Origin: Thermothelomyces thermophilus ATCC 42464
Lineage: Eukaryota > Ascomycota > Sordariomycetes > Sordariales > Chaetomiaceae
NCBI RefSeq assembly: GCF_000226095.1
Contig: NC_016478.1
Span: 536,001 to 600,000 of the forward strand
Direction of reading: 5' to 3'
Length of the DNA stretch: 64,000 bases
Shown here: piece by piece, positions 45,156 to 52,869 of the stretch
How positions within the stretch are numbered: the stretch's first letter is position 1
Layout: every line of letters starts with the position of its first letter
Translations under genes and position numbers: made by a program
Notes under the pieces: model-generated
What the model was told of the DNA's origin: nothing
What the model saw: only the letters and a program-made list of their open reading frames with translations
Database searches by the model: none

Positions 45156-45887
45156 CACGCCTAGACGCACACGGGCAGTTGTTTATGCGACCGTTTTTCT
45201 TCTTTTCTTCTTTTCTTCTTTTCTTCTTTTCTTCTTTTCTTCTTTTCTTCTTTTCTTCTTTTCTTCTTTTCTCTTCTTTTTTTTCCTTTCCTATTTTTAG
45301 AGTACGACTTGCTACATCAGTCCGAAGGCTGCTGTTGTTGCCGCGCTGCTGAGCTATTGAGCTGCTACGTCGACGCCCAAGGTAGGTTCCGGCTCAGAAG
45401 TGCGTCTAGTTTGGCGAGCGCACCGGCCGAACTCCATCGCTGACCCGACGTATGATGCGACCCCTCAAGGCGCAGGCATCAGCTCAGGCGTGGTCGTATT
45501 CAGAACGATTGCCGCTTCGCTGAGGCACCTGAGAGGGCAGCGTATGTTGCTGGGAGGACCTTGGAAGTATCCGCTTCTGGAAGTGGAAGATTGGAGAGAG
45601 TGGAGTGGAGGGTGCTGTGGTTAGAGGGAAGCTTGTCGATCCCCAGCCTTGGCGGCCCTGGGGTCGAACCTACACTCCGCAGCCAAGGCTTACTCGTGGC
45701 CCCCCCTACCTGCCCCGCTTTTCTTCGGCCCAGCCAACGAACCGCTAGGCAGGTTGGTACTTACTACCTATACAGCCATACTAGCCAAACGGCCACTTTT
45801 TCGACATCTTCGACAAAGCCACTACTTTTAAAGCCTACATTCGAATCCTACAATATATTAAAGATAGAGGGCTATATCTAGGATGTT
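45156..45887. other. Promoter-side flank of the F-box-like gene and boundary of the transposon island
   Basis: Contains the pyrimidine microsatellite at 45194-45290, then ordinary-looking DNA to about 45720, then increasingly TA-rich sequence up to the LINE 3' tail at 45888. RIP may have spread a short way out of the repeat here. Confidence 0.5.
45194..45290. repeat. (CTTCTTTT)n microsatellite upstream of the F-box-like gene
   Basis: About nine tandem 8-bp pyrimidine units, 40-135 bp upstream of the minus-strand ATG at 45155, so within the likely promoter or leader. On the coding strand it is a GA-rich tract. Confidence 0.9.
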
Positions 45888-46445
45888 CTTATTATTATTA
45901 TTATTATTAATCTTACACTGCTATACTAATAAGCATACTAGAGCCTCTCTAGTTATATACAAAGGAAACCGTACCTAATAGGCCAGATAAAAACCTCTAT
46001 CCTACCTTTAACGCCTAATCTAGAATACTAATACACTACAAAGGAAAAGGAGAAGTGGCTAGAATAGCCTTATAGAGGCCTTATACCCTGGTCTAGCCTC
46101 CTTACGAGGTGGTATTCCGGAAGCCTCCCTAGGTCTACTAGCCACTATAGAACCCTCCTTGCCAAACGATAGTTACAGGCCCCTATACCCTATAAAACGA
46201 GGTCTAGGTCCCTTTACAACCGTATTTCCTAGGATTTCTATATTCGGCTTCTTAGTAAGTTTAGGCACTAAATAACTAGGTACTTAATAATCTCCCTTCC
46301 CTAGCTATAGGCATAGTAAAGGGTACTAACCCCTAGGACTTAAACCCTAAATAGGAAGTTATAAAGGCTAATAACCCCTATATAGGCCTATACTAATAAG
46401 GAGCTCTAGGCCTTCGTTAGGCCCTAGTGCCTTTATAAGCCTTCC
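45888..46445 (-). mobile_element. LINE copy A, 3' part (Tad1-like), left of the Gypsy insertion
   Basis: The minus strand matches the 3' end of LINE copy B (about 52180-52733) nearly along its whole length, including the terminal (TAA)n tail, seen here as (ATT)n at 45888-45912. It stops exactly at the CTTCC that precedes the left LTR. Its continuation lies on the other side of the Gypsy element at 59173, so one LINE was split in two. It is heavily RIP-mutated. Confidence 0.88.
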
Positions 46446-46774
46446 TATAATATGCTAGCCTTATAGCATCTATAAATAAGTATATAATATTTTATTTGAC
46501 TACCTTAAGGAGGAAAAAGAGGAAAAATACAAGAGTTATACAAAGGAGTACCTTTTAACCAATATATACGTATATAACCTAGGTAGGGCCCGGTTAGGCT
46601 CTAGGTCGGGCCCTAACCAGGCCTTGGCCGTATATCCACCAGACGAGTTACAAACGAGCAACGAACGCTCTACAGACCTATAGGGCGTACATAGGTAGGG
46701 CAGGGTAGGTCTATTCCTATGCCTAGGTAAAGCCTAGGCATTGTCTAGCCTAGGTATAGCCCAGGCCTATAATA
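46446..46774 (-). repeat. 3' LTR of the Gypsy element (left copy)
   Basis: 329 bp, aligned by eye along its length with 58844-59172. The differences I noted are transitions (C/T or G/A), consistent with RIP acting on both copies. Its termini are TATAAT...ATAATA where the other copy has TGTAAT...ATAACA. Confidence 0.9.
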
Positions 46775-46775
46775 T

Positions 46776-46794
46776 ACCCCCCCCTTCTCTTTTC
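46776..46794 (-). promoter_or_regulatory. Polypurine tract of the Gypsy element
   Basis: On the plus strand a run of C then CTTCTCTTTTC directly inside the left LTR; on the minus strand this is AAAAGAGAAG plus a G run next to the 3' LTR, the expected plus-strand-synthesis primer site. Confidence 0.7.
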
Positions 46795-47067
46795 GTAGTT
46801 GCTAGGCCGACCTATCCTATATCCTACCCCTATATTAGTCCCGTGAACAGGTCCCGTGCCTTCCTTCCTTTATCGCTATAACAATGTAACCTATATATAT
46901 AATGGCGTGTCGAGCGTAAATAGGCAGCTATTCGAGTTCGGATGAAAGCTAAGCTCCTTCCCTTTGTTATTAGAACAACGCGACCTATACGCGTAGTAGT
47001 AAGTTCTACGTGTAATAAGTAGGTTGCCTAGGTCTTATGTACTCCCTTACTGCCCTTCCCTTAACGC

Positions 47068-47160
47068 CTATAAATACCTCCTCCTCTTCCCTCTTCCTCC
47101 TAATTCTCTCTCTTGTAACTAACTCTCCTCTTCCTCTATACCTTCTAACTACCCCTACCT
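47068..47160 (+). promoter_or_regulatory. TATA-like box and CT-rich leader inside the Gypsy element, antisense to pol
   Basis: TATAAATA at 47069-47076 is followed by about 80 bases of strongly pyrimidine-rich sequence, a common layout for fungal core promoters and leaders. It points along the plus strand, opposite to gag-pol, towards the plus-strand reading frame at 52870-53777. Confidence 0.4.
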
Positions 47161-47180
47161 CCTATAACTATACTTTGCTA

Positions 47181-47428
47181 CAGCTCGGTGGCTGCAATCA
47201 GTACAGCTCAGAGAGGCTGCAAAGGTACGACACCACAGCGGTATTCGCGCCGTGGGCGGCACTCCTGGACCAACTGTTACGGTCTGCAGAAGTAGGTGAT
47301 AAAGCGTTGATTGTTCTAAGTGCCAGAGGCACTCAGAGATGCTATCTAAATACATGTCAACACCCTGGCTCGTTATCCCTGTTGGTGGGTCAGTCGGATC
47401 TGACCCACAGACAGCCAAATGCTGTAAC
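47181..47428 (+). mobile_element. Un-RIPped 248-bp element, probable tRNA-derived SINE
   Basis: This stretch is rich in CA and TG, while everything around it is depleted of them. It begins CAGCTCGGTGGCTGC, close to a Pol III A box (AGCTCRGTGG), and 42 bp later has GGTACGACACC, matching the B box GGTTCGANNCC at most positions; the spacing is right for a tRNA-type promoter. The left flank ATACTTTGCTA (47170-47180) and the right flank ATACTTGCTA (47429-47438) differ by one base and look like a target-site duplication. An alternative is a MITE: the ends share CAGC...GGCTG as a short imperfect inverted repeat. Its shortness would keep it below the size RIP usually recognises. Confidence 0.6.
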
Positions 47429-47879
47429 ATACTTGCTACCTATACCCTTATTATACCTTTAAGTTTTTTTTTAATTAGTATCTGTCTAGTATATTAATAG
47501 CTACTAGTTTACTTAGAGCCTCTAAGGTATTAATATTAAGGCTCTCTTGTATCTTTGCGAATACCTTACTAAAACTTACGAAACTACTATCGTTAGAAAG
47601 CTCTCGAAAAACGCTATCTAACGGTACTACTTTCAACCGCGCGCGAGCCATTACAGGTATATAATAGGCATTATAAGCGTTAGAACTAGACCTAACTATA
47701 ATCCGACCGTACCTTGTATACCTATCAAAATTTTTACCGCATAGACTACCTAGAGCCCCTGAACGTAACGTTAATTTAAAGCCTACTGCTAAGCCACCAA
47801 GTAGGGAGGCCTATAGCTTCGAACTAATCAAAGGGGGGCCTACTATAGGCCTACCCTACCCCGGATATTAAGGAACTAA

Positions 47880-49120
47880 GGGGTCTTGTCGCGTAACTGG
47901 TCGACCTTATGCTAAGCCCTAAACAGGGCAAGGCATAGAACCTCGCTAATAGGCTCTTACAAGGCCTTATGACTACTATTATAGGCCTAGTTCCAAACCT
48001 ATAGGAACTTGTGGCCGAGGAAGTTAGAAAGGGGCTTAAAGAAGCCCTTAAGGCTACCCCCCGCCCTACCTAGGCATAGGTGGCCGTAGGCTCGTAATAG
48101 GGGGCAACAGGCCCCTAGGGAGGCCTACCATCGGCCAAGGCGGTGCCGTTACAGGCCTCGCGGGAGGTCACGATACGGAACGTAAGCCTACGGGAGGACC
48201 TTAAAGCCCGAACCCCGGCCAAGATAGTCTAAGCAATTAATAGGGCTTCTAGCCGCTAGGGAGCCGTTACGGCTAGGAAGCTCCTAAGCAGGGATATAGT
48301 AGTGGTCTTTAAGGACAAGGCTATTAAGGACTAGTATTTGGTTAACAAGCGATAGGTAGCTATAGCCTTCGGAGAGGAGGCTAGGGAGGTTAGCAGGGCC
48401 TATATAGTCCTAGCTAAAGGAGTCCGGAAGGAGGAGCTATAGGGGGTTAGCGAACAAGACTTTATAGGGGCCGTAGGCCTACGCTCGATCAAAACGGTCA
48501 AGTTCCGGCTACTAAAGAGCCCGTAGAGGAAGTAGGCCATGGTACTCCTAGGCCTATAGGACCTCGAAGAGGCCCGGAAGGCCTATGACAAGGGCGTGGT
48601 CTAGGATGCCTAGGTGCTAGACTACAAGCCCTATTAGGATGCCCTAGAGCCGAAGTAGTGCTATAGGTGTTAGAGCTTTAGCCACACCTAGCGGTACTAC
48701 TAGCGGCCGGCCTATTATAGCCATTATAGCGTAAAGGCCTATAGGGAGGGGGGGAAGGCTAGGGAGGCCTAGTGCCCTACCTACTCTAACTAACTCCCTT
48801 ATAGGTATACGGCCTGTAGGGGCCCTTATATAGCCTGGCATAGGGGCTGCCCGAAGAAAGTCAAGGCCTAGGAAAGGGCTAGGGAGGCCTACTAGTATAG
48901 ACCCCGAACCTTCTAACCACTAGAGCAACTATACTAGAGGGTAGCCTTCGAGTTTAGTAACTAGCCGGAAGATGACGACCACTATCAAACCGGGGCTAAA
49001 CGCCCCTATAGGAGGCCTACCCTGGCCTAATAGGCGGCTAGAAGCACCTTATTTGACGCCTGACAGACCTATATCTCCTTTCTATAACCTGGAACCCCCT
49101 CCTTCTCGCAACCGGCCGAG
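47880..49120 (+). pseudogene. LINE copy B ORF1, gag-like with CCHC zinc knuckles
   Basis: Reading through TAG codons, the frame gives helical N-terminal sequence, then FGEEAREVSRAYIVLAKGVR and a zinc-knuckle cluster (CYRC, a Gln or Trp position now TAG, SFSHT) ending GPYIAWHRGCPKK. This is the arrangement in Tad1-clade LINE ORF1 proteins, which bind the element RNA. Many RIP stops make it non-functional. Confidence 0.8.
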
Positions 49121-49189
49121 GGGGCAACGGTTACAGAGCTAACTACTATACCCTCGGCCTCCGCTCTAGCTACCTCGAATGCAAATTAA

Positions 49190-52100
49190 GATCCTTTAGT
49201 GGAATACCTAAGGTAATAAATAGGCCCTCGAGGTCCTACTAGAGGAGGCTAAATACAACCTATTAGCCATCTAAGAACCGTAGATCAACCGGTTTATAAG
49301 GTTAATATACTGCCCCCGGGCTTCGAAATACTACCTAGTTTACAAGCCTAAGGGCAAGGCGGCTATTCTAGTGGCTAAGCGCTTCCCGGTTAGCTAGTAG
49401 GACTATTCGGCAGAGGAGAACTAGTGTAAGGTAACCTTTCCGGCCCTAGGAGAAAGGGGGTTCGAGCTCTAGTTAGTCTATAATAATAAAGGGGAGCAGG
49501 CCCTCTTATAGGACCTACTAGCCCTACCTTGGCCAACCTACCCCCTAGTTCTTATAGGTAACTTCAACCTCTACCACCCGGTCTAGGACCTATTTAACAG
49601 GCTTAGCCTAGGGGCCAGGGACCTCCTTAGCCTCGTAGACTAGTAAGACCTCGACCTACGTACGCCCTACGGCTAGGTCACCAGGGCCCCCTAGGGGGAC
49701 TAACGTGGCCGGCCTTCTACGATAGACCTATTCTAGGCCTTGGCCGGGCTGGAAGCGACCTATAGGGATATTGCGGAACGTAGGAAATCCGACCACTACC
49801 TACAGGCCCTAAATGTCTCCCTCTAGGGGACCAATAGGCCTATACCGGCTAGTAAAGGGTAGGACTAAAAGAGCCTAGACGAGGAGGTTATACGGGCCGA
49901 GGCGGCCTACCTCCTACTCCGGCTTGGTAGGTAAGTATTGGCCCCGGCCGGGCCTGTCTTCCGGGGCCCGGAGGAGCTTCTATAGGCCTTCGACAGGCTT
50001 ATAGAGGCCCTCGAGGAGATAGCTACGGTCTCGGCCCTAGCAAAGAAGGCTAGTACAGGTGGCAAACGAGCTCGGTGGTGGACAAAGGAGGTTCAGGAGG
50101 CCCAGAAGAGGGCTAAGGAGGCAGAGAGGGCCTATAGGGGTACCCTAAACCCCTATACGCAGGAAGTACTTCGGCAGGCCCTATAGGACTAGGCTAAGAC
50201 CATTACGGCCGCGAAGACCAAAAGCTAGAGAGCTACATTATAGGAGGTAACTAACTAGCCGGACCTGTTATAGAGACTAGAGCGGTAGGCAAGGCTATAA
50301 AGCCACCTACTAGTTGACCTTCTAAAGCTCCTAGCCTTCGAAGGAGGGCTTATAACCTACTAATAGAAGGCTAGAGTACTAGCCGATAAGTTCTTTCCGA
50401 ACCTAGAAGTACACCTATCAGATATTAACGACCTGGATCTGAACGACTACTAGGAGCCGAAGTTCGAAATAAGCCAAGAGGTTACGGTAGGCGAAGTTAA
50501 GGTAGTACTAGCTAGGGCGGCCCTATAGAAAGCTTTAGGGGAGGACCTCCTCCCTATAGGTCTATTAAAGATCTATAGGCAGACGCTCTACCAGATACTA
50601 GCAAAACTAGCCTTAGAGAGCCTATAGCTTAGCTACTTTCCGGCCCGGTTCAAAAGGGCCAAGACAGTGGTCCTCTGTAAGCCCGGCAAACCCCTACAAG
50701 CCTACTTTACCCTAGGTAGCTATAGGCCTATAGCGCTCTTACTAATAATGGGCAAAGTACTAGAGGCTATAGTCGCCCGGAAGGTAACGGCCGTTATAGA
50801 GGCCTACAGGCTTCTCCCGGCCGAACAAATAGGTAACCGGGAACATAGGTCTACAGAACTAGCCATTCGGCTTGTTACGGCTCAGGTCTAGGAGGCTTAG
50901 AGGCATAAGGCGGCCGCCTCCCTCCTACAGCTCGATATCTTAGGGGCTTTCGATACTGTTAACTATACCTAGCTATTAGCCACTTTACGGAGCTAGGGCT
51001 TCCTAAAGTAGGTAGTGGTCTAGGTTAGGGAGTGGCTACAAGATAGGGTGGCTATCCTTTACTTCGATGGCTAGGAAACGGAGGGTATAGCAGTAAGGGC
51101 TGGGGTCCTATAGGGGTTACCCCTCTCCCCTATACTGTTTACCCTCTATATAGCCTCCCTCTACCAGGCCATTTACTAGGCCAGCCCCGCGGTCAGTTTG
51201 ATAGACTTCGCCGACGATACTAACCTCCTAGCCTTCGGGAGGGCTAAGGAGGCCTACAACGGTTAGCTACAGAGGGCCTGGAAGGCTTGCCTTCAGTGGG
51301 CAAGGACCTGGGGTATGGCTTTTGCCCCGGAAAAGTGCGAGCTCATCCACTTCAACAGGGGCCGGAAACAGTGGTCGCGACCGCTAGAGCTCCTATAGCC
51401 TAGAGGGGGTACTACTACTATAGCCCCGTCGAAGTCGGCCAGATTCCTTAGGGTCTGGCTAGACTAGAAGCTATAGTGGGGCCCTTACTACGCAAAGGTG
51501 GTTAAGAAGCTAGAAACTTAGGAGTTTGCCCTAACCAGGCTCGCTACGAAGACCTAGGGCCCTGGCCTTCTACGGGCCCGAGAGGTCTATCCTAAGTATA
51601 TCCGTAGCGCCCTAGCTTACGGGGCCTCGAACTTCCATAAGCCTACCAAGCCAGGGGGCAAGCCGGAAGACCCTGCTAAGGAACTATTAAAGGCCTAATA
51701 TAGGGCCCTTCGAGTAGTTACTAGGGCCTATAAGGCCACCCCTATCTAGTGCCTCGAAACGGAAGCTTAGGTGCCGCCTCTCGACCTCTATCTTAATAAG
51801 AGGCTAGCCGACTTCGAAGCCAAACTCGACCAGCCACTCCTATAGACCGGGGCAGGCCTAGGGGCCTCCCGGGTCCCTACAAGGGCTCTTATCTAGCAGG
51901 CCTGTAATAGGCTAAACCAGAGGTTCTAGAAGAGAAGGGCTAGGGCAAGGGGCTAGGAGCTAAGGCCTATAGCCCTCGAGGTAACAAGGTCGACAGTCCG
52001 ATAGTAGGTTCAGGAGGGCTATAGGGGGGGTCAACCCCTCCTTCAGACCCTATAAAGAAGGCTACGGGCTACAGAACTAGCCGTAGTGGCTAGCTAGAGC

Positions 52101-52560
52101 AACCGCTAGAGGGCCGACCAAGCCGGCAGGAGGATATGGCGCGTGTCGGACAAGGACCCCCCCCGCCTGGTTTTTATAAGGGAAGGCCTATAAAGGCACT
52201 AGGGCCTAACGAAGGCCTAGAGCTCCCTACTAGTATAGGCCTGTACAGGGGCTATCGGCCTCCGTGACTTCCTGTTTAGGGTTCAAGTCCCGGGGGTTAG
52301 TACCCCTTACTATGCCTATGGCCAGGGGAGGGAGACTGTCGAGCACCTAGTTGTTTGGTACCTAAACCCACCAAGAAGCCGAACGTAGGAATCCTAGGAA
52401 ATACGGTTGTAAAGGGACCTAGACCTCGTTTTGCGGGGTATAGGGGCCCGTAACCATCGTTTGGCAAGGAGGGTTCTATAGTGGCTAATGGACCTAGGGA
52501 GGCTCCCGGAATACCGCCTTACAAGAAGGCTAGACCAGGAAGGAAGGCCTCTTTAGGGCC
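49190..52560 (+). pseudogene. LINE copy B ORF2: AP-type endonuclease and reverse transcriptase
   Basis: Endonuclease motifs come first (NLLAIQEPWI at about 49255, GNFNLYHPVQD at about 49560, STIDLFQALAG at about 49720). The reverse transcriptase follows: GSYRPIALLLIMGKVLEAIV at about 50715, then NREHRSTELAIRL and the catalytic FADD in LIDFADDTNLL at about 51200. The C-terminal part has YGASNFH and RVVTRAYKATP, the usual Tad1 tail. It is interrupted throughout by TAG codons at former Gln and Trp positions. Confidence 0.88.
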
Positions 52561-52869
52561 ATTCTAGCCACTTCTCCTTTTCTTTGTAGCGTATTAGTAT
52601 TCTAGATCAGGCATTAATGGAAGGATAGAGGTTTTTATCTAGCCTATTAGGTACAGTTTCCTTTATATATAACTAGAAAGGCTCTAGCATGCTTATTAGC
52701 ATAACGGTATAGGACTAATAATAATAATAATAACTAGTTTACTTAGTAATAGTAATAGTAGTTATTATCCTAGTAGTAATAAGAATAAAGATTGCTATAT
52801 AAATTTTCCCTTTCCTATACTAATTTTTTTTAAACTATTATATATATATACTAGGTATAGACTAACTCC

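Follow-up and report, generated by a model that had tools for sequence, protein, structure and literature searches.

The locus examined here raises the question of how a short element with abundant CA and TG dinucleotides comes to stand in DNA that RIP has otherwise stripped of them, and of what kind of element it is. It lies in the window, by which we mean the whole stretch of 64,000 nucleotides that was analysed (C7:536001-600000), and an initial annotation had read it as a probable SINE of Pol III type inside a RIP-destroyed retrotransposon. The contrast in composition described there is real. The 254 bp of the element hold 45 CA+TG, as against a median of 13 for the 254-bp segments starting at positions 45501-52600, among which the highest value without overlap with the element is 30; the flanking 1000 bp hold 41 on the left and 43 on the right. 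The identity of the element is another matter. We conclude, with a probability of about 0.96, that the parent was an LTR retrotransposon of Ty3/gypsy type, about 10.7 kb long and equipped with a chromodomain, and that the element is one of its LTRs standing alone (a solo LTR). This identification corrects a mistake likely to be made here, that of taking the element for a fungal SINE.

Limits of the element and its target site

The solo LTR covers 254 bp on the minus strand (47176..47429), with TG...CA ends, and reads TGCTACAG...CTGTAACA on the plus strand. Its limits were set by an alignment of 40 copies with 40-bp flanks, together with the 5-bp duplications, and in the set of 73 loci described below the copy ends were refined by sliding them a limited distance towards the end letters that were expected. 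The flank alignment moves the borders first proposed outward, from 47181 to 47176 and from 47428 to 47429, and identifies on either side the 5-bp target-site duplication TACTT (47171..47175 and 47430..47434). The near-duplication of 10-11 bp that had been reported around the element can indeed be read in the letters, but the true target duplication is the 5 bp TACTT. The longer likeness comes from the start of the element, TGCTAC, and from the host, whose own sequence in the empty-site copy L088 is TACTTGCTACC; one TACTT is followed by the element's TGCTAC and the other by the host's GCTAC, and these match by chance. TG...CA termini are found in the copies, a few of which carry TA or TA-type changes at one end. 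The coding orientation was taken from the pol frame of a full copy at C1:2091498-2102655. The strand of this frame is opposite to the LTR orientation used at first, and the solo LTR of the window therefore lies on the minus strand.

The surroundings are RIPed, as had been claimed, but the solo LTR sits directly in a host repeat, multicopy and RIPed, of no assigned class rather than in a recognised retrotransposon (46446..47516, resuming at 52733, as delimited by the empty-site search). A query made of the two window flanks joined with one TACTT gave 41 rows (best 40 of 192 candidates), two of which are the window itself; all of the 39 others cross the junction uninterrupted, and the eight empty-site copies that were aligned all lack the insert (8/8). 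A RIPed LINE (47517..52732, plus strand) starts 87 bp to the right of the solo LTR and is nested in the same host repeat. It is recognised by an RVT_1 match at 50712-51377 with 10 TAG stops and by a TAA-repeat tail, and its insertion is marked by the 14-bp duplication ACTAGTTTACTTAG (47503-47516 and 52733-52746). Among the RVT_1 matches of the genome (best 150 of 1117), many are stop-free, in frames of 1264 or 1287 aa with identical scores, beside RIPed ones; these recent elements, present in many copies, have apparently not been exposed to RIP, possibly owing to prolonged asexual growth.

Solo and interior-joined copies

The genome searched comprises 38.74 Mb in 7 contigs, and the original 248-bp query retrieved itself and 39 other sequences at 89-98% identity (best 40 of 116 candidates). 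The DNA searches for copies each gave the best 40 of 89-119 candidates, so that copy counts are lower bounds; unRIPed queries favour unRIPed copies, and two RIPed queries were added to offset this bias. The resulting 73 loci fall into 40 with non-interior flanks on both sides (solos) and 33 with the family interior on one side (joined), L080 and L081 having been reassigned from solo to joined after inspection of their flanks. Both ends of the query are reached by 34 of the 40 solos, the partial six being L006, L017, L036, L046, L060 and L086. Among these 34 complete solos, the 5-bp duplications are exact in 25 and carry one mismatch in 4; the remaining 5 show more mismatches and count as solos without a duplication (L008, L011, L022, L082 and L084). 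When left and right flanks are cross-paired between different copies, none of 1122 combinations matches. In joined copies, one flank is common to the family (the interior) and the opposite flank is unique.

The interior junction pattern led to ten further loci, with the LTR present in nine and absent from L105, and a heavily RIPed query led to twelve more, comprising 11 joined copies and the RIPed solo L114. At least 94 family copies, fragments included, were seen in all, 53 of them joined; 13 of the 20 loci of one extra set duplicated others and were dropped, and a 185-bp fragment (C3:2634864-2635048) was left out. That the element is short and multicopy, is flanked by duplications of its own and keeps CA/TG intact inside RIPed DNA is supported. 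The check for such copies, which had been proposed as a test of the SINE, came out positive, yet its outcome fits a solo LTR, a possibility that the initial annotation had not considered.

The parent retrotransposon

The LTR sequence recurs as paired direct repeats bounding retrotransposon copies of about 10.7 kb. LTRs on the same contig and strand were paired by their matching duplications, and nine pairs were found, with duplications identical in seven and differing by one transition in two; five of the nine pairs lie more than 17 kb apart, and nested insertions are assumed there rather than seen. Two copies with matching duplications measure 10.65 and 10.68 kb. The copy bounded by the LTRs L023 and L031, with GCTCG duplications, is about 11.2 kb long, of which 453 bp are a later insert, and a 2.8-kb family copy (L030-L014) also exists.

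In the RIPed interior of the L023-L031 copy, a single frame with many stops holds matches to reverse transcriptase, RNase H, integrase (very weak) and a chromodomain, in this order. The Chromo match (36 bits, cut-off 25.1, E 6.5e-9) is the only interior match above its Pfam curated cut-off, RVT_1 (26.9 bits, cut-off 29.6, E 4.6e-6) and RT_RNaseH (23.1 bits, cut-off 24.8, E 8.6e-5) being just below theirs. The very weak rve match (13.7 bits, cut-off 32.6, E 0.079) lies in the expected place after RNase H and is followed by SH3_Tf2-1 (18.9 bits, cut-off 30, E 0.0016) and then by Chromo. The presence of reverse transcriptase and RNase H in one frame fits a parent of the Ty3/gypsy type. No Pfam family matched the upstream (gag/protease) piece of one copy's interior.

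A candidate primer-binding site begins TGGTGCC, two bases past the LTR. The 19-nt candidate pattern, with up to 3 mismatches, has 27 matches in the genome as against 17 for the pattern read backwards; on examination of 24 of the 27, the family's own junctions account for 19 of the 19 matches with at most 2 mismatches and for 4 of the 8 with 3; a fifth of these 8, L105, is no such junction. We found no convincing primer-binding site after the 5' LTR by this search, nor any purine-rich tract directly before the 3' LTR in the copies inspected. By eye, the interior ends next to L031 and L023 show an inverted GGTGCC...GGTTCGAA-like motif.

A second CA/TG-rich island, of 453 bp, was noticed in a RIPed interior of the same family (L061:5461-5913, G000:C1:2098607-2099059). 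It has TG...CA ends with ACCCG on both sides and many matches in the genome, several of them paired about 7.16 kb apart (best 40 of 1614 candidates), and is probably a solo LTR of another family.

Other readings of the element

A short, multicopy, duplication-flanked element containing words like A and B boxes could be taken for a tRNA- or 5S-derived SINE mobilised by a LINE, a reading that we hold to be extremely improbable. It is not clear that the A- and B-box motifs exceed chance: on neither strand does any pair come closer to the consensus motifs than 3 mismatches, 32 of 300 first-order Markov controls equal or better this, and the boxes first described were apparently read on the plus strand, opposite to the coding strand of the element. 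No tRNA or 5S RNA was found by Rfam in positions 46900-47700 of the window, where a limit of E 10 let through four matches to other families, all at chance level, nor in five diverged copies at E up to 1 (one chance-level snoRNA match), and ARAGORN found no tRNA in the window or in 24 loci. In the flank alignments, the copies have no 3' simple-repeat or A-rich tail and their duplications are not of variable length; TG...CA ends and duplications of 5 bp likewise speak against a SINE of Pol III origin, as do copies that run into a retrotransposon interior, and the direct-repeat pairs joined to that interior effectively rule it out. The same pairs effectively rule out a MITE or another remnant of a DNA transposon bounded by terminal inverted repeats, a reading that has as little probability as the SINE. 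The ends of the element do form imperfect inverted repeats (TGCTACAG / CTGTAACA, 7/8 complementary), but short inverted ends are a normal feature of LTRs, and the element occurs as direct repeats flanking a pol-bearing interior. A reading that keeps the solo LTR and changes the parent takes the latter to be a TRIM, non-autonomous and with an LTR that contains a tRNA-like Pol III promoter, as in Helenus. The fungal Helenus likewise makes 5-bp duplications, according to the available part of its description (PMC10886601). This reading is very improbable, if marginally less so than the two others, and was rejected: no tRNA-like sequence was found in the LTR by Rfam or ARAGORN, and pol domains are present in the one interior that was read, whose size is anything but miniature.

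RNAalifold applied to the 34 complete solos gives hairpins with two-sided changes at six pairs; the covariation term is +1.43 within an energy of -68.3, and there is therefore no net support for a conserved RNA structure of the LTR. Two palindromes of the LTR (47316-47337 and 47385-47408 of the window) are also present in other solos. In the first, the loop is found in either orientation, depending on the copy (TCT/AGA, TCC/GGA), and a few stem changes are two-sided.

RIP and the formation of solo LTRs

Solo and joined LTRs differ strongly in their content of CA+TG per base, with medians of 0.178 (n 40, range 0.056-0.198) and 0.107 (n 33, range 0.040-0.157), respectively (Mann-Whitney p 4.4e-12), and the TpA/ApT ratio is 1.17 in solos versus 1.86 in joined LTRs. 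The lowest solo value, 0.056, comes from L046, a partial copy. Among the 34 complete solos the lowest values are 0.145 (L058) and 0.147 (L016), and the least RIPed joined LTRs, L031 (0.157) and L023 (0.153), overlap them. Joined copies found later lie at 0.023-0.112 (nine) and 0.012-0.081 (eleven), so that all 53 joined LTRs are below the solo median, L031 and L023 only slightly, and 34 of the 35 complete solos stand at 0.145 or above. The sole clearly RIPed complete solo found is L114 (G000:C1:4542138-4542538), with TTAAT on both sides and a CA+TG of 0.039. Within one genome, the same 254 bp thus carries RIP in copies attached to a long repeat, and copies that stand alone are mostly spared.

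Thermothelomyces thermophilus is listed, in the available part of a survey, among the genomes with RIP on more than 10% of the assembly (PMC7882544). In Neurospora, perfect and closely placed homology of as few as 155 bp triggers RIP, which is substantial at 220 bp, as stated in the portion of the work at hand (PMC4858203); therefore, 254 bp is not absolutely below the reach of RIP. Distance and imperfect identity, beside size, probably also matter in the sparing of solos.

The following order of events may be proposed. A full-length copy would have landed, in minus orientation, in a repetitive region that is now RIPed, and created the 5-bp duplication, a step that is backed by the observed duplication and by the empty sites. 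LTR-LTR recombination, the standard route to solo LTRs, would then have removed the interior and one LTR. The remaining 254 bp may trigger little RIP as a short, dispersed and imperfect repeat; the multi-kilobase copies would have been hit by RIP and their LTRs mutated along, which would account for the contrast observed. Most likely, recombination preceded any RIP of that copy, since strong RIP is absent from nearly all complete solos found and present in the joined LTRs.

RIP makes only transitions. Transversions therefore date the copies independently, and the order of solo formation and RIP becomes testable. Over 2274 aligned bases, the nine LTR pairs show 1 transversion as against 245 within-pair transitions, of which 209 are in RIP context; by this RIP-independent measure, the paired copies are recent, yet heavily RIPed. 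Pairwise transversion divergence has a median of 0.028 among the complete solos (n 34, 561 pairs), about 3.5 times the 0.008 of RIPed joined LTRs (n 23, 253 pairs; these were taken from the junction-pattern side, 14 having first been found by LTR similarity and 9 by the pattern), a contrast in age that is biased in that full copies which are old and heavily RIPed may escape detection. Such missed copies would weaken the age contrast but leave untouched the scarcity of RIP in solos, a result that would itself suffer if RIPed solos had been missed. Between 0 and 17 transversions separate the solos from the L023 LTR, and by eye CA/TG does not fall with this distance. Older lineages are seen as unRIPed solos, the younger lineage as solos and RIPed full copies. 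As a modest addition to the finding, the solos differ more by transversions than the RIPed copies, which argues for solos being formed ahead of RIP.

According to the accessible part of their article, the authors who described crapaud of Podospora offer gene conversion as a second option (PMC10787394): the element would still be a solo LTR, free of RIP since gene conversion from intact copies restored solos after RIP. The transversion divergence of the solos, some 3.5 times that of the joined LTRs, is the opposite of what is expected of homogenised copies, and we regard this option as improbable. Formation of solos before RIP remains the preferred reading, and it raises a tentative and rather doubtful idea, namely that RIP freezes LTR retrotransposons. 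The divergence between LTRs (the LTR-LTR difference from RIP is about 5-15% in the nine pairs) would suppress LTR-LTR recombination, and solos would come almost only from not-yet-RIPed copies. If this were true, solo LTRs would preserve older lineages as an archive almost without RIP, full copies would persist only as recent, RIPed ones, and a third answer would be given to the question left open by the crapaud authors.

Comparison with known systems

The parent resembles the Ty3/gypsy chromoviruses in the order of its single frame, which runs from reverse transcriptase through RNase H to a chromodomain; the integrase match between the last two is very weak. It differs from them in the roughly 3.5 kb without assignment between the chromodomain and the 3' LTR; the primer-binding site and the polypurine tract are also without assignment. 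None of the titles and abstract openings in the literature covered names this LTR retrotransposon family.

Fungal SINEs are represented by AfuSINE and also by Mg-SINE and Foxy in the available part of PMC5063351, and the element shares with them its size class and its dispersed copies. Unlike AfuSINE, as that part describes it, the element has no tRNA-related region and no variable duplications of 4-14 bp; it also differs in being joined to the interior of an LTR retrotransposon.

The closest parallel is the LTR retrotransposon crapaud of Podospora, for which the same pattern has been described and small size proposed as the reason (PMC10787394, in the part available). In both cases solo LTRs are spared and longer copies RIPed, a likeness of description. 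Full copies of crapaud are bimodal in GC, some being high, according to the same text, whereas here every one of the 53 joined LTRs examined is below the solo median for CA+TG. Our finding is that of a further family, other than crapaud, with an already known pattern.
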